64,000 nt of DNA from Symmachiella dynata (GTDB lineage: Bacteria > Planctomycetota > Planctomycetia > Planctomycetales > Planctomycetaceae), in the NCBI RefSeq assembly GCF_007747995.1, contig NZ_CP036276.1, positions 5,818,001 to 5,882,000 on the forward strand, written 5' to 3'. Position 1 is the stretch's first letter. Every line of letters starts with the position of its first letter. The position numbers were made by a program, and so were the translations under genes. Positions 15,620 to 33,455 of the stretch are shown here, piece after piece. The notes under the pieces are model-generated. The model did no database searches, was not told the DNA's origin, and worked only from the letters and a program-made list of their open reading frames with translations.

Positions 15620-16255
15620 TTATTTCGTCTCTGCCAACTCTTTGGCTAACACTTGTTTTGCCGTTTCAACTTCGGCTTGCTTGCTTTGCCATTTCAAAGC
15701 GTCGAGCGATTTCATGTCATCGATCTCATCTTGCAGGCGTTCTTGGTGAGTGTGCAATTCTTCGATTTGCACCTCAATGGCATCTTTTTCCGCACCATCC
15801 AAGCCGTCGGCTTTTTCTTCCAAGGCTTCGATTCGTAATTCCGCTTCATGAACTTGGGCCTGGGCCTGCTTCAGGTAAGCATCGCGTGATTGCTGAGCTT
15901 TCAGTTTGGCTTCGATCCGATTGGCTTCTTGCTCTGCTTCTCGTGTTTCTTGCTCTTCTTCAGCAATCGCTTCGTTGGCTTCTTCACGCGCCTCTTGAGT
16001 CTCGCGTTGTTCTTCGTTCAACTCGTCGAAATTCGGCCGCATTACCTTTTGGCGTTCGGCTTCTGTTTCGTTCCGTTCCTCGTTGATTTCTTCTTGTGCG
16101 TCTTGGCGAGCGACCTGTGTTTCTTGCCGTTCTTCGATCACCTCGTTGCGAGCATCCGAAAGATCTTCGCGTGTGACATCTTGATTGCAACCAGATCCCA
16201 CGGCGATGGCACTGCTACAAATTCCATACATTGTTACTCGAATAATCCGACTCAT
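15620..16255 (-). CDS. Coiled-coil lipoprotein (stress island)
   Basis: A 211-residue lipoprotein. The signal peptide ends in the lipobox GSGC. Almost all of the mature sequence is a long charged coiled coil rich in repeated 'EERxETxxAR' and 'EANEAIAEEEQETREAE' heptad-like units. This is typical of envelope proteins that span or organise the periplasm. ATG at 16255 is favoured because AGGAG stands six bases upstream and a signal peptide starts there. A strong sigma-54 box lies at 16314-16333, about 60 bases upstream, so it is likely activated by the NtrC-type regulator encoded divergently at 16621. Confidence 0.8.
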   Translation of the reverse strand: MSRIIRVTMYGICSSAIAVGSGCNQDVTREDLSDARNEVIEERQETQVARQDAQEEINEERNETEAERQKVMRPNFDELNEEQRETQEAREEANEAIAEEEQETREAEQEANRIEAKLKAQQSRDAYLKQAQAQVHEAELRIEALEEKADGLDGAEKDAIEVQIEELHTHQERLQDEIDDMKSLDALKWQSKQAEVETAKQVLAKELAETK

Positions 16256-16313
16256 GTCTGTCTCCTGTTCTGAAAGACTGAAGTTGTAATCGCTGAATAC
16301 TTGAAACTGATCT

Positions 16314-16333
16314 AATGCAAATCGCGGGCCAAA
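16314..16333 (-). promoter_or_regulatory. Sigma-54 promoter (P1)
   Basis: TTTGGCCCGCGATTTGCATT on the minus strand. GG and GC are separated by 10 bases and it differs from TTGGCACG-N4-TTGCAT at one key position. It stands about 60 bases before the coiled-coil lipoprotein start. Confidence 0.75.
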
Positions 16334-16477
16334 CTTCCCGCAATGCATGGCGAAGTTGGATTGCTCTCGCAGAAGGCTGATTTACAGGAACGATTTGTAG
16401 AGAAACGGAACATGCAGAATTAGCGGGAGACCGCCGTCCGTAGGGCGTTGGAGCGGAAATGGCTTTCTTTTTCGAGC

Positions 16478-16492
16478 GTTGATCGCTCAACC
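16478..16492. promoter_or_regulatory. Candidate activator site for P1
   Basis: GTTGATCGCTCAAC is an inverted repeat, GTTGA-N4-TCAAC, about 145 bases upstream of P1. It shares CGCTCAAC with the better-conserved sites at 20378, 26907 and 27141. Confidence 0.45.
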
Positions 16493-16620
16493 TGGTTGAG
16501 TTGCGATCAATGGGTTGTGGAGCAAACCGTGGGGTTTAAGAATTCTAAGAGCAAGGGCTATCACGTATGCCGGGACGGTAGTAGAATGAGCTGAGTCCCT
16601 GGATGAACGAGGATACCTGA

Positions 16621-18105
16621 ATGCACAAAGTGCTTGTGATCGATGACGACCGTACGGTTTTGCGGTTAGTGGAAAAAGCTCTCGCCGATGTCGACATCGA
16701 ACTTTTTTCTGCTGAGACAGCTGAAGACGGAATGGCCCTGCTCAAGCAAGAGCAGCCCGACGCGCTCTTGTTGGACATTATGCTGCCGGACAAAACGGGG
16801 TTGGAACTGGCCCAGGAGATTCGCGCGTTTGATGCCAAGTTGCCGGTGGTCTTCATCACGGTCTCGGACGATAGTGACGTGGCCATTGAAGCGATGAAAT
16901 TGGGCGCCTATGAATACGTGCTCAAGCCGCTGGGGATTGAGCAGATTCAGGATCTTGTTGAGCGGGGCTTGGAGACCCGGCGGTTGATGCAGGCTCCGGT
17001 ACTGCTGCAGGAAAACAATGATCAATCGCTCGATGGCGAGGTCCTGGTTGGGCGCAGCCCGCAAATGCTTGAGGTCTATAAACAGATTGGGCGTGTGGCC
17101 GCCCAGGATGTGTCAGTCTTGATTCGCGGCGAAAGCGGAACCGGTAAAGAGCTCATCGCACGGGCCATCTATCAGCACAGCCATCGTGACGACAACTGTT
17201 TTTTAGCGGTCAATTGCGCTGCTTTGACCGATACCCTGCTGGAGAGCGAGTTATTCGGCCACGAGAAAGGCGCGTTTACGGGGGCGGATCACCGGCGAAT
17301 CGGACGGTTTGAGCAGTGTAACGACGGCACCATCTTCCTGGATGAAGTGGGAGATATGTCACCGCTGACGCAGAGCAAAGTGCTGCGGTTACTGCAAGAA
17401 CAGCGATTTGAGCGTGTGGGCGGCAGCGATATGATCCAGGTCGATGTGCGGATCATTTCCGCCACGAATTGTGATCTAGAACGGATGATTGAGGATAGTG
17501 AATATCGCCTCGATCTGTTCCATCGGCTCAACGCATTTGAGATTCATCTCCCGCCGTTGCGCGATCGCGGGAACGACATCCAACTGCTGATCGAACACTT
17601 TTTAGCAAGATTCAACCAGAAGCTCGGCAAGGGCATCACCGGGATCTCGGATGAAGCTATGGAGCTTCTCTTCGGCTACTCCTGGCCGGGCAATGTGCGG
17701 GAACTGCAAAGCGTACTTCGCAAAGCTATGCTGATGGCCACTGGCCCGGTACTTGTGCCGGAGTTTTTCCCTCAGGAATTACAAAGCAAGAAACCAGCAG
17801 AACCATCCGCCGCCACAGCGGATAACAAAGCCACCGACATTGCCGGCTTTCTGGATGAACGTGAGGCGGCCGGGTCCAACGACTTGCATGCGGAATCGAC
17901 GGAGTGGATGGAGCGTTACCTGCTCTCGCGGATTTTGCAAAAGCACAATGGCAACCAGTCGAAGGCCGCTGAAGAATTGGGGATCACCCGGGGGAGCTTG
18001 CGGCACAAGATCAAGACGCTGGGGATCTCGATCAATCACGTAGTGAAAGCCGATGCCGATGCCGATGAAAGCCCTGATCCTGTAGGTGAAGACTGCGATT
18101 GCTGA
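16621..18105 (+). CDS. NtrC-family sigma-54-dependent response regulator
   Basis: A 494-residue response regulator. The receiver domain at residues 1-120 has the acidic pocket DDD (8-10), phospho-acceptor D52 and K102. The central AAA+ domain follows, with Walker A GESGTGKE (170-177), the sigma-54-contacting GAFTGA loop (217-222), Walker B TIFLDE (237-242) and the C-terminal lid SWPGNVRELQ. A Fis-type helix-turn-helix (ILQKHNGNQSKAAEELGITRGSL) ends it. All catalytic motifs are intact, so it should activate sigma-54 RNA polymerase. It lies inside an island where at least six promoters carry sigma-54 boxes, and the only kinase nearby is the hybrid kinase at 20663. I infer it is the activator of the island. 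Confidence 0.95.
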   Translation: MHKVLVIDDDRTVLRLVEKALADVDIELFSAETAEDGMALLKQEQPDALLLDIMLPDKTGLELAQEIRAFDAKLPVVFITVSDDSDVAIEAMKLGAYEYVLKPLGIEQIQDLVERGLETRRLMQAPVLLQENNDQSLDGEVLVGRSPQMLEVYKQIGRVAAQDVSVLIRGESGTGKELIARAIYQHSHRDDNCFLAVNCAALTDTLLESELFGHEKGAFTGADHRRIGRFEQCNDGTIFLDEVGDMSPLTQSKVLRLLQEQRFERVGGSDMIQVDVRIISATNCDLERMIEDSEYRLDLFHRLNAFEIHLPPLRDRGNDIQLLIEHFLARFNQKLGKGITGISDEAMELLFGYSWPGNVRELQSVLRKAMLMATGPVLVPEFFPQELQSKKPAEPSAATADNKATDIAGFLDEREAAGSNDLHAESTEWMERYLLSRILQKHNGNQSKAAEELGITRGSLRHKIKTLGISINHVVKADADADESPDPVGEDCDC

Positions 18106-18247: not shown

Positions 18248-19210
18248 TTAGCGTTTATCGATTTCGACTTCAATGTCGGCATCGCGGTCGTGTTTCACCT
18301 TGTAGCGTTTATACAGTTCGTTGGTGTATGAACGATCGGCGAAGTTCGGCCAATGCTCTTGGTCAAATCCGCGAGCCCCTTCCAACTGCTCCTGCGTAAC
18401 ATTCAGGACAGCAATATGCTCGTTCTTGTCATCCGGATTCGGTTGGCATTTGAACGCTTCGAAAGGTACGGCGAACATTTTGTCGCCCAAACCTAAAAAC
18501 CCGCCATAGGTCACGGCTGCGTATTGAACGTCGCCATTATTGGCATTGATCACAAGATCTTGGATTTCACCCACGCTTTTGCCTTCCGGGTTTTGGATAT
18601 TCAAACCATGGAGTTGGCTGGCACGGATGTTTGCACCTGCGGTCTTCTTGTCAATCGCCCCGGTCCGCTCACGCGCCGAGTTGGCAGCGGTCTCACGATG
18701 GGCTTTTCGGTGTTTCACCTTATAACGTCGATCGACGGTTCTGGTGAATTTTTGATCGGCAAAGTTGGGCCAATGGTCTTCATCAAACCCGCGATCCCCT
18801 TCGAGCTGTTCCTGCGTGACATCCAATACGAGGACGTATTCGTTCGCATCATCGGAGTCCTGACGGCAAGTGAAGGCGTCGTAAGGAACGGCAAACATTT
18901 TGTTTCCGATTCCTAGGATTCCACCGTAAGTGACTGCGGCGTAGCGGATGTTGCCGTGGTTGGCGTCGATCACCAAGTCACTGATTTCCCCCACGCTTTT
19001 GCCTTGTGGGTTATAGATATTCCTGCCCAACAGTTCGGTTGTGCGGACGTTGGCGCCGGCCGTTTTCTCGTCCAGCTTGCCGATTTTGTCCCGTTTCGTT
19101 GCCGGGGATTTGCGTTTTGTATTGGTGTCATCGTAGGCGATCGCCAGCATCGTGGCGGACGCCAAAAAGATGACGGCTAAACTACTGCTTATCAAGTGTG
19201 TGCGTTTCAT
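18248..19210 (-). CDS. Exported protein with two PRC-barrel domains
   Basis: A 320-residue protein. A signal peptide (residues 1-25, ending AIA) is followed by two tandem PRC-barrel repeats, about 50-165 and 195-300. Each repeat contains NxQGKSVGEIsDLVIDAnhGnirYAAVTYGG-type sequence, then KMFAVPYdAFtC and VLDVTQEQLEGdRGFDedHWPNFAD. The repeats are far more alike than unrelated PRC domains, showing a recent duplication. PRC-barrels occur in ribosome maturation and in envelope-stress proteins; the signal peptide points to the latter. A terminator follows. I found no sigma-54 box upstream, so it may be controlled differently from its neighbours. Confidence 0.88.
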   Translation of the reverse strand: MKRTHLISSSLAVIFLASATMLAIAYDDTNTKRKSPATKRDKIGKLDEKTAGANVRTTELLGRNIYNPQGKSVGEISDLVIDANHGNIRYAAVTYGGILGIGNKMFAVPYDAFTCRQDSDDANEYVLVLDVTQEQLEGDRGFDEDHWPNFADQKFTRTVDRRYKVKHRKAHRETAANSARERTGAIDKKTAGANIRASQLHGLNIQNPEGKSVGEIQDLVINANNGDVQYAAVTYGGFLGLGDKMFAVPFEAFKCQPNPDDKNEHIAVLNVTQEQLEGARGFDQEHWPNFADRSYTNELYKRYKVKHDRDADIEVEIDKR

Positions 19211-19406: not shown

Positions 19407-19610
19407 TCAGCACGTGCAGGATTTCTCAAATGACTGAACCTGCTCTTCCGCTTTCTCGCGGGCAATTCCGTAACGTTCTTGAATTTTCCCAACGAGAACG
19501 TCCCGTTTTCCATCGATTGAATCCAGTTCGTCATCGGTCAGATCGCCCCATTTTTGTTTGGCTTGACCTTTGACCTGTTTCCATTTTCCTTCGATTTGAT
19601 CCCAATTCAT
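19407..19610 (-). CDS. CsbD family stress protein
   Basis: A 67-residue CsbD-like protein: MNWDQIEGKWKQVKGQAKQKWGDLTDDELDSIDGKRDVLVGKIQ-type sequence spanning the whole family domain, then a short helical tail ending in two cysteines (KSCTC). CsbD is a general-stress protein in Bacillus; its molecular role is unknown. It lies 90 bases downstream of the BON gene on the same strand and probably shares its sigma-54 promoter P2. Confidence 0.92.
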   Translation of the reverse strand: MNWDQIEGKWKQVKGQAKQKWGDLTDDELDSIDGKRDVLVGKIQERYGIAREKAEEQVQSFEKSCTC

Positions 19611-19700: not shown

Positions 19701-20012
19701 TCAGAGTGTCGGGTGGGCATCAATCACCTGTAACTGATTGATGACGTGATGCACTCCCGGTACTTTTGCTGCGATTGTTTGTGCAAGCTGCTTTTGATAG
19801 TAGGAGTTTGCCGTCCCGCGAAGCACGATCGTGGTTCCACGCGATTCGCATCGCACGCGGGTCAGCCGGTGGACCCCTAAACGCTGCATGGAATTCCAGA
19901 CCCGCTCGGCGAGTTGATCTTTTGAATGCTCCGAGGTTGCGTTGATGAACATGGTTCCATTTCTTTCACTCGACTCGCAATGAATTGTGCCTTGGGACAG
20001 GCTGACGAACAT
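19701..20012 (-). CDS. BON-domain protein
   Basis: Up to 103 residues with a single BON domain (about 33-100): LAERVWNSMQRLGVHRLTRVRCESRG, then TIVLRGTANSYYQKQLAQTIAAKVPGVHHVINQLQV. BON domains bind lipid surfaces and occur in OsmY-type osmotic stress proteins. No signal peptide is evident. The start is uncertain; ATG 19952 (MFINATSEHS) would still include the domain. It is the first gene after sigma-54 promoter P2 and is followed by csbD. Confidence 0.82.
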   Translation of the reverse strand: MFVSLSQGTIHCESSERNGTMFINATSEHSKDQLAERVWNSMQRLGVHRLTRVRCESRGTTIVLRGTANSYYQKQLAQTIAAKVPGVHHVINQLQVIDAHPTL

Positions 20013-20174: not shown

Positions 20175-20193
20175 TTTGCACATGCCGTGCCAA
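20175..20193 (-). promoter_or_regulatory. Sigma-54 promoter (P2)
   Basis: TTGGCACGGCATGTGCAAA on the minus strand, nearly the ideal sigma-54 sequence with GG-N10-GC. It lies about 165 bases upstream of the BON-csbD pair. Confidence 0.8.
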
Positions 20194-20377
20194 TAGAAAA
20201 TAATGCAGCGAGACTTCGGCGCATTTCTACATCGCGAAGTCTCCAAGGCTATTGATTGCGTGGAGATACTAGTCGGATCAGATTTCAAACAATTCCGTTG
20301 ACCGCATTCACCACCATGAAATTGTGGTTGGTGGATAAAAATGGCGCACCGATATCTGGTTGCCGATCTACCGCAAT

Positions 20378-20389
20378 GGTCGTTGAGCG
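20378..20389 (-). promoter_or_regulatory. Candidate activator site for P2
   Basis: Minus strand CGCTCAACGACC, an exact match to the shared YGYTCAACGACC sequence, 185 bases upstream of P2. Confidence 0.55.
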
Positions 20390-20662
20390 TTCTCGCATTT
20401 GATCCAGCAACGGCGCATAACGGCTGGAGAACATCAGAGGGGGAGCAGAGCAGTTCTTTGTTGAACCGTCGGCTCTTTAAGCGACCGACGGCTCAGTCGG
20501 ATTACATCTACAGATAAATCATCCGTCATCGAGACTCGCGTGACGTGTGGTCGATTTCAAACCACACGGCAGCACGTTTTGCAAGCGCGTCTGGCGACAC
20601 TGAAGTTTCAACTCGCCAACATATGAGCATCCGCTTTTGTTTGGCTAAGCGGGCAGCGCTGA

Positions 20663-23600
20663 CTATTCTCGATATTTTGCCAATGCGAGGTCGAGTTGTG
20701 CGACGTGTTGCTCGAGTTGTGTTTGCAATGCTTTCGCCCCCGTCAAATCGCCGGCTTTGCCAAGTTGCTCTAACTCGTTGGCCGTGGAGAGACAGTTCTC
20801 AGCACCGAAATTGGCAGCGATGCCTTTGAGGCTGTGCGCTGCGTGTTGCACGGCTGAGGGGTCGGCGGCGTCGATTGCTTTCCCGAGATCCTCAAGCAGC
20901 TTGGGTGAGTCTTCTTGAAAGTAGCCGATAAACTCCAGAAACAGGTTCTTGTCCCCATTCAGGCGCCGCATCGTGCCTGCATAATCGACAACGTCATCTG
21001 GCGAAGCGGGTAACTCCGGCTGTGGTGTAGAAGATGCGTTCTCAACAATTTCAGCGGATTCTTCAAAGTCATAATCGTCTTCGAGATCGTGTAGGTTGTC
21101 GCGGCCGAGAGAGGCATTTTCTACCAACTGGACCAGTTCCTCCACATCAACTGGCTTGGAGAGGTAGGCATCCATGCCGGCCGCTAAACATTTCTCGCGA
21201 TCTCCCCGCATGGCGTGGGCGGTCATGGCAATGATGGGTGTTGATTTTTTAGAATCATTTTCAACGGCGCGTATTTTTGCAGTCGCTTTATAACCGTCCA
21301 TGACCGGCATTTGCACATCCATCAAGATCACATCGAAGGCCCGATCATGGTACAACTGAATCGCTTCCTGGCCGTTCTGAGCAACGGTGACCGTATGCCC
21401 GTACTTTTGTAGGATGATTCTCACGACTTTCTGATTGGCGGGTGTATCCTCCGCCAGCAAAACCGAAAGCGACCGATGTGAGGTGCGGTTGTTGTGTGGG
21501 TTCACTTCGTCATTGGTTTCGTCGACTTGGACATGCATGGCCTGCATGACGGCGTCCAACAGGTCGGATTGCGAGACCGGTTTCTGTAAAAAGTGATCGA
21601 CTCCAGACTCGGTTTCCCGCTGTTTGAATTCCTGTCGATCAGACGAAGAGATCATCAAGATAATTGGCGGCGGATTGGTGGTTCGTTCGCAGATACGTCG
21701 CGATAACGTATATCCGTCTACTCCCGGCATCTGCGCGTCGAGGATGACTAACGGATAGGGAGCACCGTTTTCGCATGCTCGATCCATCCGGCGAATCGCT
21801 TGTTCGGCTCCCTCCACGGTATCGGGTTGCATGGACCAATTCTTCAACATTTGGGCTAGAATGCGACGGTTCGTCTCGTTGTCATCCACGACCAGAACCG
21901 GCAAATTTTGCAGTTGCTTGAGCGACAATCCTTCCGACGGTTTTCTCGTCGCGATCGATTGACGGGCAAGTGTCACCTGAAACGACAGACAACTTCCTTT
22001 CTCCGGTTCGCTTTCGACGGAGAGTTTTCCGCCCATTAAACGCAGTAGCTGGTTGCAGATGGCCAGTCCCAGACCCGTTCCTCCATGTCGCCTGGTGGAA
22101 GAGGCATCGACTTGAGTGAACGGTTCGAGAATGCGGCGTTGGTCATCCGGAAGAATACCGACGCCGGTATCGCGAACCGAAAAACGGAGTCGCACTTTAC
22201 TGGGCCATTTTTTCAATGTTTCCACAGCAACGACCACTTCGCCGGCATCGGTGAATTTCACCGCATTATTGATGAGGTTGGTCAAAACTTGCTTAAGCCT
22301 AACCGTGTCGCCCACTAATTCGTCGGGGACATTGCTTGCCACATCGCAGGCCAATTCCAACCCTTTATCAAACGCATGCAGCGATAGCGGCTTGATGGCC
22401 ACATCCAGCATTTCGCGTAGATGAAACGGTTCGTTTTCGATCGTAAATTTCCCGGACTCCAGCTTCGAGAAGTCGAGGATGTCGTTCACCAACGTCAGCA
22501 ACGAGTGCGCTGACTCGTTGGCTGTTCGAATGTAGTCCTCCACATCGTCTGTCAACTTTTCACCGAGTGCGATTTGCGTCATGCCAATAATTGCGTTCAT
22601 GGGCGTTCGCAATTCATGACTGACATTGGCTAGAAATTCTGCGCGCGAGCGATTGGCTTTTTCGGCATCTTCCTTGGCGACAAACAGCTCTTTTTGTTGC
22701 CGTTTACGTTCGGTGATATCTCGCTCGATCGTTGACGAGCCAATGTCCACCCCGTTCTCATCGGCGATCGGCGATACGGTGACGGAGACGGAGAGTAATT
22801 GCCCATCTTTTCGTTTCCGGATCGTTTCAAATTGTTCCAACCGCCTCCCCGAATGTATCGCCTCGGTGATGACTTTCGTTTCTTCTTCAATATCCGGCGG
22901 CAAGAGAAAATCGATGGTTCTACCAAGCGTTTCTTCTTCCCGATAGCCATAGACGCGTTCGGCCCCCAAGTTCCAACTGTTGATCGTGCCATCGATGTCG
23001 ATGCCGATGATTGCGTCGTAGGAAGAATCGACAAGTGCCGCCAAGCGAGCCCGATATTTTGAGTTTTCGCTCTTCTGCGAAATATCGCGGACAAAGGCAT
23101 TGAAGAGGACTTTGCCGTCAAGCGACACGGCAACGACGCTCAATTCGATGGGGAATTCTTCTCCGTTTTTTCGTAAGGCGGTCAGCTCCACCCGTTGGCC
23201 CAGGATCGGTCCCATCCCCGTTTTAAGAAATCGCGCTAACCCTTGGCGTTGAGCGGTCCGATATTCCGGCGGGATGATGCGCGATGCGAGTTCTTCACCA
23301 ACAACTTCTGATCGTGTCCAACCAAACGTGGTTTCCGCCTGGGCATTCCAGTCCACGATGCGGCCGCGTTGGTCAATCGAGACGACGGCATCCATCGCAG
23401 TTTCAACGATGCTGCTGCGATAACGTTCTCGACTGAGTAGCGTACGTTTGGCACGCACGATTTTACCACACAAGGCGGCCGTCAACCAAATGGCGAACAT
23501 CCCCAACAGCCGGTTCATGACGGAGATCCAAACAACCTCGTCACTCGTTGAAGAGATATACAGGTCGATCACCAACATGACCGAACATAATGCCGCGGTG

Positions 23601-23803
23601 GCGTAGATATCTAAAGCTTTTCCGGTTCGGAAAGCCAACCAGATAATCGGCAAATACAATATGTAGCCAGCCACATCGACTGCCAGAAACGAATCGAGCA
23701 GAAACACTGCTCCAACGGCCGCTAAGACACTCACGCGTGCCAAGACGTACGATTCACGCGAGTTATCCACGACGTCTTGGAACGGCATCGAGTCAGAATT
23801 CAT
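20663..23803 (-). CDS. Hybrid sensor histidine kinase (PAS-PAS-HisKA-HATPase-REC-REC-Hpt)
   Basis: About 1046 residues. An N-terminal membrane region has four to five helices (residues 20-115). Two PAS domains follow (about 130-245 and 255-370), then HisKA with phospho-acceptor in NVSHELRTPMN (H396) and an ATPase domain with N-box LINNAVKF and G-boxes DTGVGI and HGGTGLGL. Two receivers follow: the first has DDN with LDAQMPG, the second AED with MDVQMPVMDG. A C-terminal Hpt domain carries AAHSLKG. The architecture supports a multistep phosphorelay with an external response regulator as final acceptor. ATG at 23803 has AAGGTAGG upstream. The nearest separate response regulator is the NtrC-type gene 2.5 kb away, and a sigma-54-like box precedes this gene too. 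Confidence 0.93.
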   Translation of the reverse strand: MNSDSMPFQDVVDNSRESYVLARVSVLAAVGAVFLLDSFLAVDVAGYILYLPIIWLAFRTGKALDIYATAALCSVMLVIDLYISSTSDEVVWISVMNRLLGMFAIWLTAALCGKIVRAKRTLLSRERYRSSIVETAMDAVVSIDQRGRIVDWNAQAETTFGWTRSEVVGEELASRIIPPEYRTAQRQGLARFLKTGMGPILGQRVELTALRKNGEEFPIELSVVAVSLDGKVLFNAFVRDISQKSENSKYRARLAALVDSSYDAIIGIDIDGTINSWNLGAERVYGYREEETLGRTIDFLLPPDIEEETKVITEAIHSGRRLEQFETIRKRKDGQLLSVSVTVSPIADENGVDIGSSTIERDITERKRQQKELFVAKEDAEKANRSRAEFLANVSHELRTPMNAIIGMTQIALGEKLTDDVEDYIRTANESAHSLLTLVNDILDFSKLESGKFTIENEPFHLREMLDVAIKPLSLHAFDKGLELACDVASNVPDELVGDTVRLKQVLTNLINNAVKFTDAGEVVVAVETLKKWPSKVRLRFSVRDTGVGILPDDQRRILEPFTQVDASSTRRHGGTGLGLAICNQLLRLMGGKLSVESEPEKGSCLSFQVTLARQSIATRKPSEGLSLKQLQNLPVLVVDDNETNRRILAQMLKNWSMQPDTVEGAEQAIRRMDRACENGAPYPLVILDAQMPGVDGYTLSRRICERTTNPPPIILMISSSDRQEFKQRETESGVDHFLQKPVSQSDLLDAVMQAMHVQVDETNDEVNPHNNRTSHRSLSVLLAEDTPANQKVVRIILQKYGHTVTVAQNGQEAIQLYHDRAFDVILMDVQMPVMDGYKATAKIRAVENDSKKSTPIIAMTAHAMRGDREKCLAAGMDAYLSKPVDVEELVQLVENASLGRDNLHDLEDDYDFEESAEIVENASSTPQPELPASPDDVVDYAGTMRRLNGDKNLFLEFIGYFQEDSPKLLEDLGKAIDAADPSAVQHAAHSLKGIAANFGAENCLSTANELEQLGKAGDLTGAKALQTQLEQHVAQLDLALAKYRE

Positions 23804-23838: not shown

Positions 23839-23855
23839 AGCATCAGTATAGCCAA
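23839..23855 (-). promoter_or_regulatory. Possible sigma-54 promoter (P3)
   Basis: TTGGCTATACTGATGCT on the minus strand keeps TTGGC and TGC with GG-N10-GC but lacks the CACG bases. It is 36 bases before the kinase start. Weaker than the other boxes. Confidence 0.45.
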
Positions 23856-23986: not shown

Positions 23987-24181
23987 CTACCAGGGCTTCA
24001 ATTTCCAGCCCAGTACAAAGCCGATTCCAAACGCCCATAAGGTCACGACCTCGGGTCGTTCTTGAGCGTACTGTTTCATGCACTCAATCGCCGCATCGCC
24101 GGCCGACATGGCCTCTTGACCTGCGAGATGAATCGGCTTCGAGTGACGTTCATGGGATTGGATATTCATATCGTCTGTCAT
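23987..24181 (-). CDS. Small YqjD/ElaB-like C-terminally anchored protein
   Basis: 64 residues: a short charged N-terminus, a helix (AMSAGDAAIECMKQYAQERPEVV), then a C-terminal hydrophobic segment ending in a lysine-tagged tail (GFVLGWKLKPW). This is the layout of DUF883/YqjD proteins, which attach ribosomes or stress factors to the inner membrane in enterobacteria. AGGAG lies six bases before the ATG. It is last of a run of similar small genes on this strand. Confidence 0.7.
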   Translation of the reverse strand: MTDDMNIQSHERHSKPIHLAGQEAMSAGDAAIECMKQYAQERPEVVTLWAFGIGFVLGWKLKPW

Positions 24182-25379: not shown

Positions 25380-25432
25380 GGCAATGCTTTGGGGGGTTCC
25401 GTATCAGGATGATTAGCAGACCGTTAACAAAA

Positions 25433-25513
25433 GGGTGCCACTGGCGACTTATCCGCCAGTGCAAACGGTGTGACCTGAAAAACACTGCTGGGCAAGCCAG
25501 CGGTGGCACCCGA
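25433..25513. repeat. GGGTGCCAC dispersed palindrome, copy 1
   Basis: Bounded by GGGTGCCACTGGCG and its rough complement GTGGCACCC, with internal GGCGACTTATCCGCC and GCTGGGCAAGCCAGC hairpins. Related copies lie at 33482-33563 and 40375-40454, always between genes. Confidence 0.7.
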
Positions 25514-25544
25514 CTTTCGATATTTTGCGATTCTTAACAGGCTG

Positions 25545-25796
25545 TTAACGTTTCATAAACGAATCAGGCACGACCGCACTTAAGGAGTCCAACAGTTGTG
25601 CGCCCAACCGCTCCGCGGCCGCCGCCCTGCGCGGCGGCCCGGAGTCAGAGAGTAGGCTGACCACTGTCAGTCCGACCCCCACACCTAACCCAAAGGTGAC
25701 AAGTGCGGAGGACAATGCGTGATCACCGACAAAATCCTTCGACTGCTCGGTGATTGATTCCTGAATATCGTCCAAACGATTACGAGGTTCAGACAT
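25545..25796 (-). CDS. Hypothetical small membrane protein
   Basis: 83 residues: an N-terminal amphipathic helix (RLDDIQESITEQSKDFVGDHA), one transmembrane helix (ALVTFGLGVGVGLTVVSLL), and a basic then Leu-rich tail. It resembles YqjD-type proteins with the order changed. ATG at 25796 has GGAG nine bases upstream. It lies in the same series of small envelope genes; co-transcription from P4 is possible. Confidence 0.72.
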   Translation of the reverse strand: MSEPRNRLDDIQESITEQSKDFVGDHALSSALVTFGLGVGVGLTVVSLLSDSGPPRRAAAAERLGAQLLDSLSAVVPDSFMKR

Positions 25797-25848: not shown

Positions 25849-26016
25849 TTATGACGGTCGGCGTATCGACCCCGTCACGGCACTGATCAAAAACAACACG
25901 AGGAAAACGACGAACAAGATTTTTGCAACACCGGCGAAACTGGCAGCGATGCCGGTAAATCCCAAAACAGCGAAAGCCAACGCCACGATCAATAAGAAAA
26001 TTGCCAGATTTAACAT
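25849..26016 (-). CDS. DUF1328 family membrane protein
   Basis: A 55-residue protein of the DUF1328 (YtjA) family. The sequence begins MLNLAIFLLIVALAFAVLGF, continues with TGIAASFAGVAKILFVVFLV and ends ISAVTGSIRRPS, i.e. two transmembrane helices joined by the family's GIA-x-AGVAK turn. AAGGAG lies six bases before the ATG. These proteins are stress- or starvation-associated with unknown mechanism. Its small size makes it easy to miss. Confidence 0.9.
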   Translation of the reverse strand: MLNLAIFLLIVALAFAVLGFTGIAASFAGVAKILFVVFLVLFLISAVTGSIRRPS

Positions 26017-26064: not shown

Positions 26065-26517
26065 TTATCGAGACCGCAAAGCGAGACCGAGCACGACACC
26101 GGTGATTAACCCGGCGCCAAAACAGACTGCTAAAGATTCCGCGGGACGGCGACGGACTAGCTCTTCGGTTTGCTTGTATCCATCGCGCATTTGATCAGCG
26201 GCCCGCGTTGCAGCCACTCTGGCTGACTCGCCAGCATGCGCCGCATAGTCACTGACATTGTCGGCGACATCGTGGACACCTTGGCGGACGGCATCCGAGA
26301 CTTTTTCGACCGTGGAAGTTGAGTTGCTCACGATCTCTTCGAGAAAGTCTTCCACATCGCCACGAGCCTCGCCGGTCTTCCGCTGAATCATTCCGACCAG
26401 CTGAGCGGCGTTGCCGTCGAATTGTTTTAATTCGTTGTCCGTCAGTTCTCCCCAACGGTCGAGTAATTTGCCTTGAATTTCATTCCAGTGCCCTTGCAAA
26501 ACTTGTTTATTGAGCAT
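26065..26517 (-). CDS. CsbD domain fused to a YqjD-like anchor
   Basis: 150 residues. Residues 5-60 are a CsbD domain (VLQGHWNEIQGKLLDRWGELTDNELKQFDG). Residues 65-120 form an amphipathic helix rich in Ala and Glu. Residues 122-150 are a membrane anchor (RRRPAESLAVCFGAGLITGVVLGLALRSR) of the kind seen in DUF883 proteins. The fusion combines the two recurrent modules of this island and would tether a CsbD domain to the cytoplasmic membrane. Confidence 0.88.
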   Translation of the reverse strand: MLNKQVLQGHWNEIQGKLLDRWGELTDNELKQFDGNAAQLVGMIQRKTGEARGDVEDFLEEIVSNSTSTVEKVSDAVRQGVHDVADNVSDYAAHAGESARVAATRAADQMRDGYKQTEELVRRRPAESLAVCFGAGLITGVVLGLALRSR

Positions 26518-26580: not shown

Positions 26581-26736
26581 TCAGATGACCTTCATCACCA
26601 AAAGCACGATCACAATGATGAGAAGCAGGCCCACGCCGCCGCTGGGTCCATACCCCCAATTCCGACTGTGCGGCCATGTCGGCACTGCGCCGAGAAGCAG
26701 CAAGATCAAAATGATCAGCAAGATGGTTCCCAACAT
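26581..26736 (-). CDS. DUF3309 family small membrane protein
   Basis: A 51-residue protein of the DUF3309 type. MLGTILLIILILLLLGAVP is followed by TWPHSRNWGYGPSGGVG and a second helix LLLIIVIVLLVMKVI. The WPHSxxWGYxPSGG loop is the family signature. It is the first gene after sigma-54 promoter P4, 58 bases downstream of the box, and may lead an operon with the CsbD fusion (63 bases away). Confidence 0.9.
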   Translation of the reverse strand: MLGTILLIILILLLLGAVPTWPHSRNWGYGPSGGVGLLLIIVIVLLVMKVI

Positions 26737-26793: not shown

Positions 26794-26810
26794 AGCAGGT
26801 TCCGTGCCAA
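26794..26810 (-). promoter_or_regulatory. Sigma-54 promoter (P4)
   Basis: TTGGCACGGAACCTGCT on the minus strand, with complete TTGGCACG and TGCT and GG-N10-GC. 58 bases upstream of the DUF3309 start. Confidence 0.8.
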
Positions 26811-26906
26811 TCGCCAATTCTCATAAAATCCGCTGAAATACGAGGGCGATTGAAGCAGCAATAGAGACACTTCCGCAAATTTCGCGCGACGTGCGGTCAA
26901 GCTGAG

Positions 26907-26918
26907 CGCTCAACGATC
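26907..26918 (+). promoter_or_regulatory. Candidate activator site for P4
   Basis: CGCTCAACGATC, 11 of 12 to YGYTCAACGACC. It lies about 97 bases upstream of P4, the usual distance for NtrC-type activators. Confidence 0.55.
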
Positions 26919-27140
26919 AAGCCTGTTCGCCATCCCCTCACATGCAGAAGGCTCCCCCTCAACGCCCCCGACAGAACGCGGCATGAGGGAACGGATCAGC
27001 GGATGCAGTCGTCGCGCCGGCGGCAATATTTGGGAGCGCTCGACGTACCTCTTAGGTTTCGAGCTTATCAGGCTTCCAGCTCATTCCACCGAAAGGCAAG
27101 CTCGGTGGACGTCAGTCAATCGTCACTCCACCACTCTGAG

Positions 27141-27152
27141 TGTTCAACGACC
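27141..27152 (+). promoter_or_regulatory. Candidate activator site for P5
   Basis: TGTTCAACGACC, an exact match to YGYTCAACGACC, 43 bases upstream of P5. The preceding CTGAG is also shared with the site at 26907. Confidence 0.55.
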
Positions 27153-27194
27153 GGTCTCAGCCACCAAAAACGCTCAAATTCCGCGATTTTAGTG

Positions 27195-27214
27195 TTCGGC
27201 ACACGGCTTGCTTT
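27195..27214 (+). promoter_or_regulatory. Sigma-54 promoter (P5)
   Basis: TTCGGCACACGGCTTGCTTT, with GGCAC, TTGCTTT and GG-N10-GC. 63 bases before the GTG start of the PH-domain gene. Confidence 0.8.
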
Positions 27215-27276
27215 AACCACATAGAAGAGGAAGCTGGTTGACCAAGCACTGAACTTAAAAAATCAAGGAGATGGTC

Positions 27277-27975
27277 GTGAACACCACCGAAACTTTGACG
27301 TATCGCTGCCCGCACTGTACTGCAGTGATGGATGTGGAATCACAACTGATTGGAGAAAACATCGCGTGTGTCGACTGCGGCAAGCCGATTCAAATCGAGG
27401 CGCCGCAGTCAATCCCGGTCAGCGAAACTTCATCGACCGGTGTTCAGAGTCCCCCGGTGGTTGAAGTGCCCGCCGATGAAGAGCGGACTCTTCAAACGCT
27501 GCACCCAGCGATGTTTCGCAACCATCCTTTCATCTACCTGGGCATCGTATTGTTGTTTGCCCTCGGTTTGGCAGGTCTCGTGTTATTCCTTGCGGCTGAG
27601 GCGAACGTCGATCTTGTCGCGTGGGACCTCAACAACTGGGACGTGCTGGAAGGGGAATCGTTGCTGTGGATCAGCCTGGCGTTGATGGCGGTCAGCACTG
27701 TCACTTACTTGGCTTGGCGAATCAAGATCATGTTTGTCACTTTGCAGGTCACAACGGACCGTTGCATCTTTCAGCGAGGGCTCATCGCACGCACCACCTC
27801 TGAAGTCCGACACGATGACGTTCGTAATATGCAGATCGATCAAACCGTCCTCCAGCGCATACTGGGTGTGGGCTCGCTGGCCATCTCCAGCTCTGGACAA
27901 GATGACTTTGAAATCCGCGCCAAAGGGATTCCACAACCTGAATCCGTGGTGGAAACCATTCGGAATTACCAATAA
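27277..27975 (+). CDS. Zinc-ribbon bacterial PH-domain membrane protein
   Basis: 232 residues. The N-terminal zinc ribbon has CPHC and CVDCGKPI pairs. A linker is followed by two transmembrane helices (about 83-105 and 128-148) and a bPH_2 (DUF304/YdbT-like) domain with VTTDRCIFQRGLIARTTSEVRHDDVRNMQIDQ and ILGVGSLAISSSGQ. GTG at 27277 is the likely start: AAGGAG ends at 27270, six bases before it, while the ATG at 27271 abuts the Shine-Dalgarno directly. It is driven by P5 and precedes the AI-2E permease by about 70 bases. Confidence 0.85.
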   Translation: MNTTETLTYRCPHCTAVMDVESQLIGENIACVDCGKPIQIEAPQSIPVSETSSTGVQSPPVVEVPADEERTLQTLHPAMFRNHPFIYLGIVLLFALGLAGLVLFLAAEANVDLVAWDLNNWDVLEGESLLWISLALMAVSTVTYLAWRIKIMFVTLQVTTDRCIFQRGLIARTTSEVRHDDVRNMQIDQTVLQRILGVGSLAISSSGQDDFEIRAKGIPQPESVVETIRNYQ

Positions 27976-28047
27976 GTCTGGGCCGTGTTGTCGTTAGTCG
28001 GTTGTCTGTTAAAAAATGCCTCAAGCGCGAGACAAGGGATATCTGTC

Positions 28048-30009
28048 ATGGTAGATAAAAACGCGGCAACGCATGGTTCAGGACGTTCGTACACGCTGTT
28101 GATCTTGGCATTCGTGATTGCCGCGCTCTATTTGGCCAAAGAGATATTATTGCCGCTTTCTCTCGCCATCTTGCTAAGCTTCGTCCTCACCCCCCTGGTG
28201 AGCCGTTTGGAACGGTTGCGTCTTGGGCGAATCCCTTCAGTGATCATCGTATGTGCGATTGCATTCTCTGCCATTGGAGGCGCGGGCTGGCTGGCTACGA
28301 ATCAACTCATTGAGTTGAGTACGCGACTGCCGGATTATAAAGACAATCTGATCGATAAGATCCACAACCTGCAAAACGGGACCGGTGAGAAACTCGAAAA
28401 GGCCAAGCAAGCACTCGAAGACATTGGCACAGAATTGTCGGAAGGCGGCGACGTTGCCGACAAAGAGCAAGATTCCGCCGAGACCTCTGATCAGCCGGCA
28501 TTGCAGAAAAACATACTGGGGTGGCTAAACCCTCAAAAACAGGCCGATGGCTCGAAAGACAACCCGGTGGAAGTCAAAGTGGTCTCCCTGCCCCCTTCCC
28601 CGTTGAATCAGATTCAAACGTGGTTGGGGCCGCTTGTGGCGCCATTGTCCACGGCGGGTATCGTCGTCGTGCTGGTGGTTTTTATTCTGGTCAAGCGAGA
28701 AGATTTGCGGAATCGGGTGATCCAACTCGTCGGCACTTCGAAACTGTACGCCACAACAGAAGCGATCGAAGACGCCACCGACCGCTTGAGCCGTTATCTA
28801 CGGATGCAGTTGTTGATCAACATCATTTATGGTGTCGTCGTTGCTGTTACTTTGATGTTTTTGGACGTCCCCAACGCGATTCTGTGGGGCGTGATGGGGA
28901 CGATGCTGCGGTTCTTGCCATATATCGGTCCCTGGATCTCAGCCGCTATGCCGATCGCACTGACAATGGCGATCTCCGATGGCTGGTCGCTTCCCTTGAT
29001 GACCATCGGACTGTTCGTCAGCTTGGAACTGGTGGTGAACAATGTGCTGGAACCTTGGTTGTACGGCAGTAGCATTGGTGTCTCATCGTTGGGTGTTATC
29101 CTCGCAGCGATTTTCTGGACCTGGCTGTGGGGACCGGTGGGATTGGTACTGGCGATGCCGTTGACGGTCTGTTTGGTGGTTCTAGGCAAGTATGTTCCGC
29201 AACTCGGTTTCCTGCCATTATTGTTAGGAGACCGCTCAGCTCTTGAGCCGTATGAACAGATGTATCAAAGATTATTGACGGCAGAAGACTATGAAGCGAA
29301 CGAATTGGCTGAAGAGTACCTCAAAAATGCGAGCGTGACGGAATTTTATGACGACGTGTTGATGCCCGCCCTGCAGTTGGCCGAGCAAGACCGACATGCG
29401 GCTCTGCTCAGCGAACAACAAGAAACCGTGGTGAACGACTCTGCACGAGAACTCGTCGAGGAGTTGGGCGAACGATTGCCCCAAGAACCACTGCCGGAGA
29501 ACGGGGCTTGCGGACCAGAGGCTCAGGAGCACGTACTTTGTATTCCGGTGCGCGACCAAGCTGATGAAACGGTCGCGTTAATGACCGGTCAACTGCTGCG
29601 GTCTGAAGGATGTCACGTCGAAGTGGGATCAATCGATATGCTGGCGAGTGAAGCGATCAACCGGATTGAAACTCAACAGTGCCAAATCGCGATCCTCATC
29701 CTGCTGCCGCCGCTGGGGGCACGCAAGGGACGCTACCTTTGTAAACGGTTGAGCCAGCAGTACCCCGATTTGCAAATCGTCGTTGCACTGATGCATGGTG
29801 AAAAGTACGGCAAATCGAAGCAACGTTTATTAAATGCCGGGGCCAACGTCGTTGCAACGAGTCTGCCGGACTTAATCACCTCCGTACGCCAGGCACGCTT
29901 CAATGTCCAACAAGCGTCCCACTCGCACAGTTCCACAGAGGAGTCCGTCCCAGTAGAGCAAAATGCCGTCCCTGTTGCCGCCGCACAGCCCGTTGATCAC
30001 CAACCCTAA
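28048..30009 (+). CDS. AI-2E family permease with large C-terminal cytosolic extension
   Basis: 653 residues; typical AI-2E/PerM/YdiK family members have 340-400. The N-terminal two helices, the long soluble insert (about 100-185) and the six-helix core with LMFLDVPNAILWGVMGTMLRFLPYIGPW and LAAIFWTWLWGPVGLVLAMPLTV mark the family. Beyond residue 390 it continues with a helical region, then a domain (about 500-620) reading VLCIPVRDQADE, CHVEVGSIDMLASEAINRI, IAILILLPPLGARKG and LQIVVALMHGE. This resembles a cobalamin-binding or receiver-like Rossmann fold lacking its active Asp or His. ATG at 28048 has AAGGG upstream. Substrate is unknown; AI-2 transport should not be assumed. Confidence 0.88.
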   Translation: MVDKNAATHGSGRSYTLLILAFVIAALYLAKEILLPLSLAILLSFVLTPLVSRLERLRLGRIPSVIIVCAIAFSAIGGAGWLATNQLIELSTRLPDYKDNLIDKIHNLQNGTGEKLEKAKQALEDIGTELSEGGDVADKEQDSAETSDQPALQKNILGWLNPQKQADGSKDNPVEVKVVSLPPSPLNQIQTWLGPLVAPLSTAGIVVVLVVFILVKREDLRNRVIQLVGTSKLYATTEAIEDATDRLSRYLRMQLLINIIYGVVVAVTLMFLDVPNAILWGVMGTMLRFLPYIGPWISAAMPIALTMAISDGWSLPLMTIGLFVSLELVVNNVLEPWLYGSSIGVSSLGVILAAIFWTWLWGPVGLVLAMPLTVCLVVLGKYVPQLGFLPLLLGDRSALEPYEQMYQRLLTAEDYEANELAEEYLKNASVTEFYDDVLMPALQLAEQDRHAALLSEQQETVVNDSARELVEELGERLPQEPLPENGACGPEAQEHVLCIPVRDQADETVALMTGQLLRSEGCHVEVGSIDMLASEAINRIETQQCQIAILILLPPLGARKGRYLCKRLSQQYPDLQIVVALMHGEKYGKSKQRLLNAGANVVATSLPDLITSVRQARFNVQQASHSHSSTEESVPVEQNAVPVAAAQPVDHQP

Positions 30010-30059
30010 AGTATTTCCGGATCATTATTAATCCCTGCATTCTGCTTTGCCCCGTATCT

Positions 30060-30071
30060 GGTCGTTAAGCA
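30060..30071 (-). promoter_or_regulatory. Candidate activator site for P6
   Basis: Minus strand TGCTTAACGACC, 11 of 12 to YGYTCAACGACC, about 87 bases upstream of P6. Confidence 0.5.
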
Positions 30072-30112
30072 GCCAATTCGAAAGTTGATCTACCAATTGA
30101 GAGGAGTTTTCG

Positions 30113-30157: not shown

Positions 30158-30174
30158 TTGGCATGCTATCTGCA
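30158..30174 (+). promoter_or_regulatory. Sigma-54 promoter (P6)
   Basis: TTGGCATGCTATCTGCA: TTGGCA and TGCA with GG-N10-GC. 61 bases before the DUF2383 gene. Confidence 0.75.
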
Positions 30175-30234: not shown

Positions 30235-30702
30235 ATGACATCCGAATCTCAAAATAGACTCAATCAAAGAACGATTACCGCTTTGCAAGAACTCATCGAG
30301 ATTAATCTCGATAGCTATAACGGGTTTACGAAGGCAGCGAATCTGATCGAGGATACGACATTACAACATCATTTTGCCGGCGTCGCCCAGGAACGAATTA
30401 GGCAGGCTGTCGGTCTACAGCAACTCATTGACAGTGATGATGAGCAACCGCTAATCGAAGGCAGTATCGCCGGACGAATTCATCGAGCGATCATGGATTG
30501 GAAAGATACGTTTAGTGAAGGGCCCAATGCGGTATTGACCGAAGTGAAACGCGGCGAAGACTACATCAAAGCCAAATACGAGGCTGTACTCTCACGAACG
30601 GCCGGTAGCAAAGCGGCTGGCCTTCTCAAACGCCAATACGCCGCCGTTCAACAGGCACGCAACCGCATTTGCGAACTTCGCACGAAATTTACCGCGACCT
30701 AA
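30235..30702 (+). CDS. PA2169/DUF2383 family four-helix-bundle protein
   Basis: 155 residues forming a predicted ferritin-like four-helix bundle of the DUF2383 family: LNQRTITALQELIEINLDSYNGFTKAANLIED, then LQHHFAGVAQERIRQAVGLQQLI, and the C-terminal pair with RGEDYIKAKYEAVL. The name derives from a Pseudomonas protein of unknown role; members are commonly found in stress loci with CsbD and BON genes. GGAG lies about eight bases before the ATG. It is the first gene downstream of P6. Confidence 0.87.
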   Translation: MTSESQNRLNQRTITALQELIEINLDSYNGFTKAANLIEDTTLQHHFAGVAQERIRQAVGLQQLIDSDDEQPLIEGSIAGRIHRAIMDWKDTFSEGPNAVLTEVKRGEDYIKAKYEAVLSRTAGSKAAGLLKRQYAAVQQARNRICELRTKFTAT

Positions 30703-30865: not shown

Positions 30866-31144
30866 ATGTCATTTCTTGAAATCCTGGTGTTGTTATTAAT
30901 TGCTGGAATCTGTGGCGGACTGGCACAGGCGCTCTGTGGCTATTCTCGCGGAGGGTGTCTGATCTCCATCGTGATTGGGTTCATTGGTGCCTTCTTGGGC
31001 ACATGGCTGGCGCGACTCGCTGAATTGCCAGAGATGTTCGCCATCACCATTGGCGACACAACCTTCCCAATCCTCTGGTCAATTATTGGCGGGGCACTGT
31101 TTGCCGCCATCATAGGTTTCATCACACAACGTCCGTCCAAATAA
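30866..31144 (+). CDS. GlsB/YeaQ/YmgE family membrane protein
   Basis: 92 residues, three transmembrane helices with the glycine-rich turns of transglycosylase-associated/GlsB proteins: LLLIAGICGGLAQALCGYSRGGCLISIVIGFIGAFLG. A 20-residue insertion between helices 2 and 3 (ARLAELPEMFAITIGDTTFPI) makes it slightly longer than average. Family members are stress-induced; function unknown. The Shine-Dalgarno is weak. No clear sigma-54 box precedes it, so it may be read from the upstream unit. Confidence 0.85.
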   Translation: MSFLEILVLLLIAGICGGLAQALCGYSRGGCLISIVIGFIGAFLGTWLARLAELPEMFAITIGDTTFPILWSIIGGALFAAIIGFITQRPSK

Positions 31145-31256: not shown

Positions 31257-31709
31257 ATGAGTGATTCCCGTGAAGATCTGGAAGCGCGCGTCGAAAAACT
31301 CGAACATGAACTTCAGGTTGAACAAAATTCGCACAAGGCAAAGAAGTCCGTTCGCGCCCGCTCCCACAAAAAACTCCTTGGTTTGCCGCTCTACGATGTC
31401 GCCATCGGTCCCGATTTTGAGAGCGGCGAGGCACGCGGGCATGCCAAAGGGATTTTCGCCATCGGTGATCAAGCCACCGGAGTGATCGCTGTCGGGGGCA
31501 TCGCTCAAGGCGGGGTGGCCATTGGCGGACTGGCGTGTGGACTTTTGAGTTTAGGGGGCTGCGCGTTCGGTCTGTTGGGAGTTGTCGGTGGCGTGGCCCT
31601 TGGTGGATTCGCTTACGGGGGAGTGGCGGTCGGGTTGAAAGCCATTGGCGGTGTTGCTGTCGATCCGGGATGGTTTGGCGACGCACAATTGCCCATCACC
31701 AAGCCGTAA
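31257..31709 (+). CDS. Coiled-coil protein with glycine-rich 10-residue repeats
   Basis: 150 residues. An N-terminal heptad coiled coil (DLEARVEKLEHELQVEQN) and a basic linker lead to about six degenerate 10-residue repeats of the form G-hydrophobic-x-small-hydrophobic-G-G-x-A-x (for example TGVIAVGGIAQ, GGVAIGGLAC, GLLSLGGCAF, GGFAYGGVAVG). The periodicity suggests a compact beta-solenoid or membrane-inserted sheet rather than helices. No family name can be given. GAGGAGG precedes the ATG. Unknown function; its place in the stress island suggests an envelope role. Confidence 0.75.
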   Translation: MSDSREDLEARVEKLEHELQVEQNSHKAKKSVRARSHKKLLGLPLYDVAIGPDFESGEARGHAKGIFAIGDQATGVIAVGGIAQGGVAIGGLACGLLSLGGCAFGLLGVVGGVALGGFAYGGVAVGLKAIGGVAVDPGWFGDAQLPITKP

Positions 31710-31723
31710 AACTGCTGTCGCTC

Positions 31724-32647: not shown

Positions 32648-32721
32648 GGGTGAGCTTTCTTTAATCCTTGAGCACATTGAGTCAGGCTGGACAACACTGT
32701 TCGCCCTCCCATCGAGTTGGT

Positions 32722-32733
32722 TGTTCGGCGACC
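32722..32733 (+). promoter_or_regulatory. Weak activator-site candidate for P7
   Basis: TGTTCGGCGACC, 10 of 12 to YGYTCAACGACC, 118 bases upstream of P7. Confidence 0.3.
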
Positions 32734-32850
32734 ATTTCCAGGTCATCTCAGCCGGAAGCCAATGCAATATTTCCATCAGCCATGGCGAAATCAACTCAAT
32801 TCCAAACGTTTTGCGTCAAAAAACGCTCCCGGGTTATCGCATAGGCAGGA

Positions 32851-32869
32851 TCGGCACGGCAACTGCTCT
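32851..32869 (+). promoter_or_regulatory. Sigma-54 promoter (P7)
   Basis: TCGGCACGGCAACTGCTCT: GGCACG and CTGCT with GG-N10-GC, 74 bases upstream of the ferritin ATG. Confidence 0.75.
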
Positions 32870-32942
32870 TAAAAGAAAACTATTGCGAGAAATGCAAAAC
32901 GAACCTTCGAATCTTCACTAAGACAGTCAGTTGAGGTCAATC

Positions 32943-33455
32943 ATGACTAAAGAACTCGTGTTCAACGCCTTGAATGAACAAGTCGGATCAGAATTATCGG
33001 CGTGGTATTCCTATCTAGGAATGTCAGCTTGGTGCTCGTCACAACAACTCAACGGCAGTGCGAGATGGCTGCGGGCACAGGCCCAGGAAGAGTACACGCA
33101 TGCGATGAAACTCTATGATTTCTTGGTCGAACGGAATGCCCCCGTGCAATTGAAGCAGATCGAACCTCCCCAAGCAGAGTTTGAATCGATTGTCGAAATC
33201 TTTCACGCTGCATTGAAGCAGGAGGAAGAGAACACACAGCGGATCGACGCTATCTTTCAAATGGCATTGGACCAACGCGCATTCGCTTCGCTTGTCGAGC
33301 TGCAGTGGTTCATCACGGAGCAGGTTGAAGAGGAAAAAACGGCCCGTGAAAACCTGGCCAAAGTCAAAATGGTCAGCCAGGATCCGGCAGCCATCCTGGA
33401 ATTCGACCGCGTGTTAGGGGAACGCGACTTGGTGCTGGACACCAGCCCCGCTTAA
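32943..33455 (+). CDS. ftnA: Bacterial non-heme ferritin
   Basis: 170 residues. Numbered from ATG 32943, all ferroxidase and third-site residues of E. coli FtnA fall at identical positions: E17, Y24, E50, H53, E94, E126, Q127 and E130. The protein should oxidise and store iron as a 24-mer in the cytosol. GAGG lies six bases upstream of this ATG. A sigma-54 box (P7) precedes it, which is unusual because bacterial ferritins are normally controlled through Fur or small RNAs. Confidence 0.95.
   Translation: MTKELVFNALNEQVGSELSAWYSYLGMSAWCSSQQLNGSARWLRAQAQEEYTHAMKLYDFLVERNAPVQLKQIEPPQAEFESIVEIFHAALKQEEENTQRIDAIFQMALDQRAFASLVELQWFITEQVEEEKTARENLAKVKMVSQDPAAILEFDRVLGERDLVLDTSPA

Follow-up and report, generated by a model that had tools for sequence, protein, structure and literature searches.

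Sigma-54 control of envelope stress is an already known kind of system, and the closest described examples are the enterobacterial PspF, ZraSR and GlrR/QseF systems. We analysed a 64,000-nucleotide window of the Symmachiella dynata genome (G000:C1:5818001-5882000; genome of 7.77 Mb in a single contig), in which a 17.8-kb island of envelope-stress, ferritin and transport genes (window positions 15620-33455) resembles these systems in its predicted use of sigma-54, in its GAFTGA-bearing AAA+ activator and in its envelope-related targets. Unlike PspF, ZraSR and GlrR, the island has CsbD, BON, DUF1328, DUF3309, DUF2383, ferritin and AI-2E proteins as its candidate targets, arranged in six units behind a different operator. 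Planctomycete envelopes are unusual and, to our knowledge, little is known about how stress genes are controlled in these bacteria. With a probability of about 0.8, the island is one sigma-54 regulon under its own NtrC-type activator, with a nearby hybrid kinase as its probable partner.

An article of 2011 (PMC3162934) made the case that sigma-54 governs the exterior of bacteria, and it names PspF and QseF in a table; in the portion of that article covered here, neither planctomycetes nor Rhodopirellula occur. Carrera-Reyna et al. 2025 (PMC12316311) predicted that, in Planctomycetia, sigma-54 control is enriched for MscS, UspA, chaperones and NtrC-type regulators, and the main text mentions neither CsbD, ferritin or the BON domain nor the COG numbers for CsbD, DUF1328, GlsB, Pmp3, AI-2E and BON. 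A stress transcriptome of Rhodopirellula baltica (PMC2754498) names a ferritin/Dps stress cluster and a thioredoxin gene that is induced by stress and has a proposed sigma-54 promoter in front of it; CsbD does not occur in the main text, and the passages considered here describe no regulon, activator or operator. The RpoS, SigB and EcfG regulons share gene families with the island, where these families lie behind predicted sigma-54 promoters instead. The island's gene set, its operator and their class-wide use appear to be unreported in the open literature that we searched.

We scored the window with a sigma-54 weight matrix that was built from the general consensus and not fitted to the window. 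A preliminary description of this DNA had placed six GG-N10-GC boxes upstream of island genes, and all six were present with the right spacing and orientation, each conforming to the TGGCAC and TTGC-like elements. They are six of the seven top-scoring sites in the window, the remaining one (25330, plus strand) lying within a gene on the opposite strand. On the minus strand, box TGGCCCGCGATTTGCA (16316-16331, score 16.7) precedes the coiled-coil lipoprotein gene, TGGCACGGCATGTGCA (20177-20192, score 16.3) precedes the BON-CsbD-PRC genes, and TGGCACGGAACCTGCT (26794-26809), which has the highest score in the window (17.1), precedes the DUF3309-CsbD-DUF1328 genes and those that follow. On the plus strand, CGGCACACGGCTTGCT (27197-27212, score 14.0) stands before the bPH_2 and AI-2E genes, TGGCATGCTATCTGCA (30159-30174, score 16.4) before the DUF2383 gene and CGGCACGGCAACTGCT (32852-32867, score 14.0) before the ferritin gene. 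The distance of 58-165 bases from box to start codon, as first described, holds for the BON box when counted from the ATG at 20012 (163 bases) and fails from the ATG at 19952 (about 222 bases).

A weaker seventh box had been proposed upstream of the kinase gene (23839-23855). We rejected it, as it scored 6.2 and its counterpart in a second genome of the genus (G001) has, by eye, GA in place of GG. The best same-strand match within 300 bp upstream of the NtrC-type activator gene scored 6.9, and the YegS-like gene had no same-strand match of at least 5 over the same distance. Consequently, the activator is probably made from another promoter, and a sigma-54 promoter of its own is not present at every island gene. 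Directly upstream of the BON promoter lies an inverted repeat, GAGACTTCG...CGAAGTCTC (20210-20243), both arms of which are altered in G001 with changes that partly match by eye.

The boxes are concentrated in the island. Sites scoring at least 13 numbered seven there (the six boxes and 25330), and the window's remaining 46 kb had none. The same threshold gave 15 sites in a 400-kb sample of the same genome (20 stretches of 20 kb, with a maximum of two per stretch) and 13 in the reversed sample. We also counted a degenerate pattern, YGGCMYRNNNNNTGCW, which was picked after the boxes were known and catches all six; it has 183 matches genome-wide versus 182 when read backwards, or about 0.42 expected per 17.8 kb. 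Of the checks raised by the preliminary description, the genome-wide count is thus at a random level, but the boxes cluster strongly in the island. Most box-like strings of the genome are therefore chance matches; as the box by itself is no more frequent than chance, what supports the claim is clustering, position before genes, conservation and the operator. Outside the window, a strong sigma-54 box (G000:C1:5802619-5802634) lies 226 bases 5′ of a frame that, judged from its sequence, is presumably GroEL-like; this box agrees with the predicted sigma-54 control of chaperones in Planctomycetia.

Box conservation upstream of orthologues, another check raised by the preliminary description, was seen both within and beyond the genus. 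In G001, all 72 informative box positions are unchanged and the flanking upstream DNA is 81% identical. The lipoprotein, BON, DUF2383 and ferritin boxes are identical, the DUF3309 and bPH_2 boxes retain their informative positions, and the sole two changes fall in spacers. Beyond the genus, we used 23 loci around activator homologues (L033-L051 and L072-L075), 17 of which hold homologues of other island genes, and placed the homologues' starts by tblastn (56 starts, none dropped). A same-strand box was located within 250 bp upstream of 22 of the 56 starts, compared to one on the opposite strand, one in reversed sequence (both strands) and two inside genes (both strands). Homologues of four genes that look operon-internal in the island had no box in any of 11 cases, which fits transcription from a promoter further upstream.

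Gene families were also sampled across the class, independently of the activator, by asking for a box of at least 12.5 within 300 bp at 30 loci per family, which are the best matches, one per genome, among a larger number. A box was found at 25 of 30 DUF1328 loci (reversed control 0, opposite strand 2, downstream window 6), at 10 of 30 DUF3309 loci (1, 0 and 1, respectively) and at 8 of 30 CsbD loci (0, 1 and 0). The sets include DUF3309 (L095) and CsbD (L157) loci of S. dynata itself, and the counts become 9/29 and 8/29 when they are left out. Across the phylum, 19 DUF2383 matches exceeded the cut-off and 18 had a locus, of which 8 carried a box (controls 0; 7/17 with the island's own gene left out); L216 is one without a box. 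The genomes are not independent, as several genera appear twice (for example G049/G057 or L116/L117) and the 56 orthologue starts share genomes with the class-wide sets. Across the class, many genomes show the same predicted promoter arrangement at homologous genes, as do some across the phylum.

As an outgroup, we examined 12 CsbD genes of proteobacterial plasmids, chosen among the 25 hits listed of 294 matching records. None of the 12 had a same-strand box of at least 12.5; a strong match (18.1) lies on the opposite strand at the Pantoea gene (L191), and at the E. coli yjbJ locus there is a weak one (10.1) on the same strand. An EcfG-like GGAAC...GTT element occurs at 3 of the 12. The plasmid search gave no match for DUF1328 and DUF3309 relatives, so that the outgroup consists of CsbD only. 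The preliminary description had set the island apart from the sigma-B, RpoS or EcfG control of such genes elsewhere, and this contrast is borne out in part. Alongside the plasmid result, Salmonella YtjA (DUF1328) and YjbJ (CsbD) are tabled in PMC5437024 as coding small RNAs under tight RpoS control, and the S. dynata genome has no RpoS or SigB/F/G homologue above the family cut-off, EcfG and PhyR not having been searched for.

The six promoters also share a candidate operator. Aligning them with G001 revealed common blocks upstream of the boxes, and a dyad common to the blocks, GRTCG-N5-CGAYC, was recognized by eye and extended to TGRTCG-N5-CGAYCA. Mismatches are counted over its 12 arm positions. 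On the minus strand, the operator of the lipoprotein promoter (16473-16509) comprises TGATCGCAACTCAACCA with two mismatches and a weak dyad 20 bp away with five; the BON promoter (20357-20393) has AGAACGCTCAACGACCA and CGGTAGATCGGCAACCA, 20 bp apart with three mismatches each; and the DUF3309 promoter (26883-26919) has TGATCGTTGAGCGCTCA with three mismatches and a weak dyad 20 bp away with five. On the plus strand, the bPH_2 promoter (27117-27153) has TGAGTGTTCAACGACCG and CAATCGTCACTCCACCA, 20 bp apart with four mismatches each, and a third four-mismatch match 11 bp further upstream, which served as its best site in the lag test below. The DUF2383 operator (30059-30095) comprises TGGTCGTTAAGCAGCCA with two mismatches and a weak dyad 20 bp away with five, and the ferritin operator (32698-32734) comprises TGGTTGTTCGGCGACCA with one mismatch and a weak dyad 20 bp away with four.

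Leave-one-out scoring recovered the dyad in five of the six promoters (p < 0.03). Of the 72 operator-arm positions, 71 are retained in G001, as are 26 of the 30 positions in the centres. We then turned to 104 promoters of other genomes, 42 from family loci and 62 from activator loci, with the window and G001 excluded; the count leaves out S. dynata loci, promoters with fewer than 180 bases of upstream sequence and near-duplicates. A de novo palindrome search of these promoters returned TGGTC-N7-GACCA as its top motif, in 22 promoters versus maxima of 7-8 in shuffles. Shuffles were used because reversed sequence is no valid control for a palindrome: its maximum of 22 mirrors the motif. TGGTC-N7-GACCA is the same motif as the window operator. 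Allowing one mismatch, the operator was found in 13 of the 104 promoters versus 0.1 in dinucleotide shuffles, and allowing two, in 26 versus 1.4. An operator-matrix match of at least 8 lies within 250 bp of 23 of 68 boxes in relatives, compared to 5 of 68 in reversed sequence.

The spacing of the paired dyads recurs as well. The strongest signal was at a lag of 20, both in the six promoters of the window (5.33 matches versus 3.01 ± 0.44, a value that none of 1000 shuffles reached) and, independently, in 53 promoters elsewhere (4.45 versus 3.13 ± 0.15, reached by none of 300 shuffles); in the 26 promoters with the strongest dyads, lag 7 is slightly above lag 20. Genome-wide, a 15-base operator pattern has 17 sites; a box of at least 12 is present within 420 bp of each of the four island sites and of none of the 13 elsewhere. 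A dyad with at most three mismatches precedes five of the six island boxes (the bPH_2 dyad has four), 3 of 28 other strong boxes (those with loci among 33 strong sites outside the island) and 1 of the 15 boxes in the own-genome sample. A ten-letter operator core was dropped, as its 48 matches in 400 kb at 9/10 were too weak against background. Clustering, conserved boxes and a common operator thus support the single sigma-54 regulon put forward in the preliminary description, and the operator, which that description lacked, strengthens the link that it drew to the NtrC-type activator.

The activator gene (16621-18105, plus strand) encodes a receiver, an AAA+ domain, a lid and a Fis-type helix-turn-helix (HTH) domain (PF00072, PF00158, PF25601, PF02954), with GAFTGA and the receiver Asp52 present. 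Relatives with 55-71% identity were found in Pirellulaceae and Planctomycetaceae (four loci). The nearest solved structures are 4l4u and 1ny5 (receiver and AAA+), followed by 3dzd, LuxO and ZraR, and the solved chains of PspF and ZraR match the AAA+ domain. We take 4l4u and 1ny5 to be NtrC1-type proteins of Aquifex; in the 4l4u alignment, the DNA-binding domain matches that of the island activator weakly, and the targets differ. Its HTH carries ITRG, presumably the recognition helix. In the genomes G031 and G047 there are several activator paralogues per genome, at about 45-57% identity, which suggests a lineage expansion.

The hybrid histidine kinase (20663-23803, minus strand) has two PAS domains, HisKA, HATPase, two receivers and Hpt, and its N-terminus is hydrophobic, which we read by eye as a membrane anchor. 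Of 20 activator stretches, counting that of G001, 14 contain a kinase match of at least 660 residues, and the kinase is probably the partner of the activator. The genome has one rpoN gene (a single PF04552 match, 203 bits), whose 512-amino-acid frame contains ARRTITKYRK, presumably the RpoN box. An RpoS/RpoD-like sigma factor is encoded in the window at 47843-48661 (minus strand), with 274 bits to the RpoS model, below the cut-off of 379.

In the proposed mechanism, the hybrid kinase would sense envelope or osmotic stress, and phosphate would pass from its receivers through Hpt to the NtrC-type regulator. The regulator, as adjacent dimers, would bind the TGRTCG-N5-CGAYCA dyads, which pair one stronger with one weaker copy, their centres 20 bp apart, and start about 60-200 bp upstream of the six -24/-12 promoters. 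Its hexamer, with ATP, would open the RpoN polymerase at these promoters which, read as operons, would drive about 19 genes. Envelope protection would be served by CsbD, BON, PRC, DUF1328, DUF3309, holin-X, PH and lipoprotein products, and other targets would act in iron handling (ferritin and DUF2383) and transport. The predicted dyad binding and RpoN promoter steps are based on conserved DNA sequence. The boxes and operators, their conservation and the intact RpoN and activator domains are directly observed. We infer which activator pairs with the operator, the phosphorelay, how far the operons extend and the nature of the stress, the kinase-to-activator steps and the signal being read from domain order and gene neighbourhood.

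The proposed mechanism names the promoter and operator, together with a candidate for the activator and for the kinase, behind a set of widespread and poorly understood small proteins, and a common trigger for CsbD, DUF1328, DUF3309 and DUF2383 would become directly testable. It would also exemplify homologous stress genes placed under a different polymerase class with a strict off state. As a tentative extension, which we favour somewhat less than its opposite, planctomycetes may have transferred the envelope branch of their general stress response from a sigma factor devoted to stress to sigma-54, an NtrC-type activator and a hybrid kinase. The genes would then be off unless there is ATP-driven activation and would be turned on via a single operator that many genomes of the class share.

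Several observations weigh against a single regulon. The window operators were initially chosen by eye, the ferritin operator was not significant by leave-one-out scoring (p 0.22), the partner dyads in the window are weak (3-5 mismatches of 12), and the 17 genome-wide sites of the operator pattern compare with 15 for its reverse. The box pattern is by itself at chance level across the genome. No box was found at 34 of the 56 orthologue starts, at 20 of 30 DUF3309 genes or at 22 of 30 CsbD genes, while 6 of 30 DUF1328 loci carry one in the downstream control window too. Three of the 23 activator loci in relatives (L038, L043 and L047) have no box of at least 13, and these three, together with L049-L051, hold no homologue of another island gene.

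The alternative that survives best, which we nonetheless consider unlikely, is that the sigma-54 promoters are true but answer to several activators, so that the island would be a set of neighbouring units. A single operator version at all six island promoters (five with at most three mismatches, bPH_2 with four), with arms retained at 71 of 72 positions in G001 and present before just 3 of 28 other strong boxes, argues against several activators. However, the genome holds 15 further NtrC-type homologues at the search threshold, and another of them could therefore bind the operator; moreover, the operator is found at up to two mismatches in just 26 of the 104 relatives' promoters, and other activators or diverged operators may consequently serve the remainder.

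It is less likely again that the dyads bind another protein, such as a repressor or a nucleoid protein, while the sigma-54 activator works at another place or does not bind DNA at all. NtrC-family sites are expected to have short arms, a five-base gap and a 20-bp repeat and to lie about 60-200 bp upstream of the -24 box. The island dyads were identified by sequence statistics alone, but they fit this layout, and the ITRG of the activator HTH is retained in 28 of 32 aligned relatives. Least of all do we expect the boxes to be chance intergenic matches in front of genes driven by a sigma-70, extracytoplasmic function (ECF) or RpoS-like factor: the chance-level frequency of the degenerate pattern and the sub-threshold RpoS-like gene in the window speak for it, but the boxes cluster, keep their position and strand in other genera and families, have fully conserved informative positions in G001 and co-occur with the operator.

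The genes of the single sigma-54 regulon that we favour are mostly small. The lipoprotein-like gene (15620-16255, minus strand) has no Pfam match and was characterized as coiled-coil by eye. Also on the minus strand, the BON box is followed by genes for a BON-domain protein (19701-19952, PF04972), a CsbD protein (19407-19610, PF05532) and a protein with two PRC-barrel domains (18248-19210, PF05239). The minus-strand DUF3309 cluster contains genes for DUF3309 (26581-26736, PF11752), CsbD-domain (26065-26517, PF05532) and DUF1328 (25849-26016, PF07043) proteins, a small protein with no family above the cut-off (25545-25796), two small proteins with no Pfam match (24978-25379 and 24703-24924), a Holin-X (Phage_holin_3_6) membrane protein (24266-24706, PF07332) and, as the last small gene, a protein with no Pfam match (23987-24181).

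On the plus strand, the bacterial PH-domain (bPH_2) gene (27271-27975, PF03703) is followed by the AI-2E transporter gene (27985-30009, PF01594), whose product has a long C-terminal extension of about 270 residues in which the sole match is a sub-threshold B12-binding one. Next come the DUF2383 gene (30235-30702, PF09537), whose product we take to be ferritin-like, a gene for a small membrane protein with no Pfam match (30866-31144) that by eye is presumably GlsB/YeaQ-like, and a gene for a small glycine-rich protein with no Pfam match (31257-31709). The ferritin gene (32943-33455, PF00210) is followed by that of a Pmp3 proteolipid (33668-33874, PF01679), which may follow the ferritin promoter. 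The Pfam matches of 20 island proteins, ferritin and Pmp3 include no pspA or zraP family.

Two further features of the window stand apart from the promoters. At 25425-25560 and 33478-33565 lie copies of a dispersed repeat; it spans about 60-135 bases, its ends are inverted (ggtgccac...gtggcacc), and it has at least 41 matches in the genome at 75-100% identity (40 of 169 candidates scored). Downstream of the island, positions 35258-38617 encode a 1119-amino-acid beta-helix protein with a weak match to an inverse-autotransporter beta-domain, barely above the cut-off.

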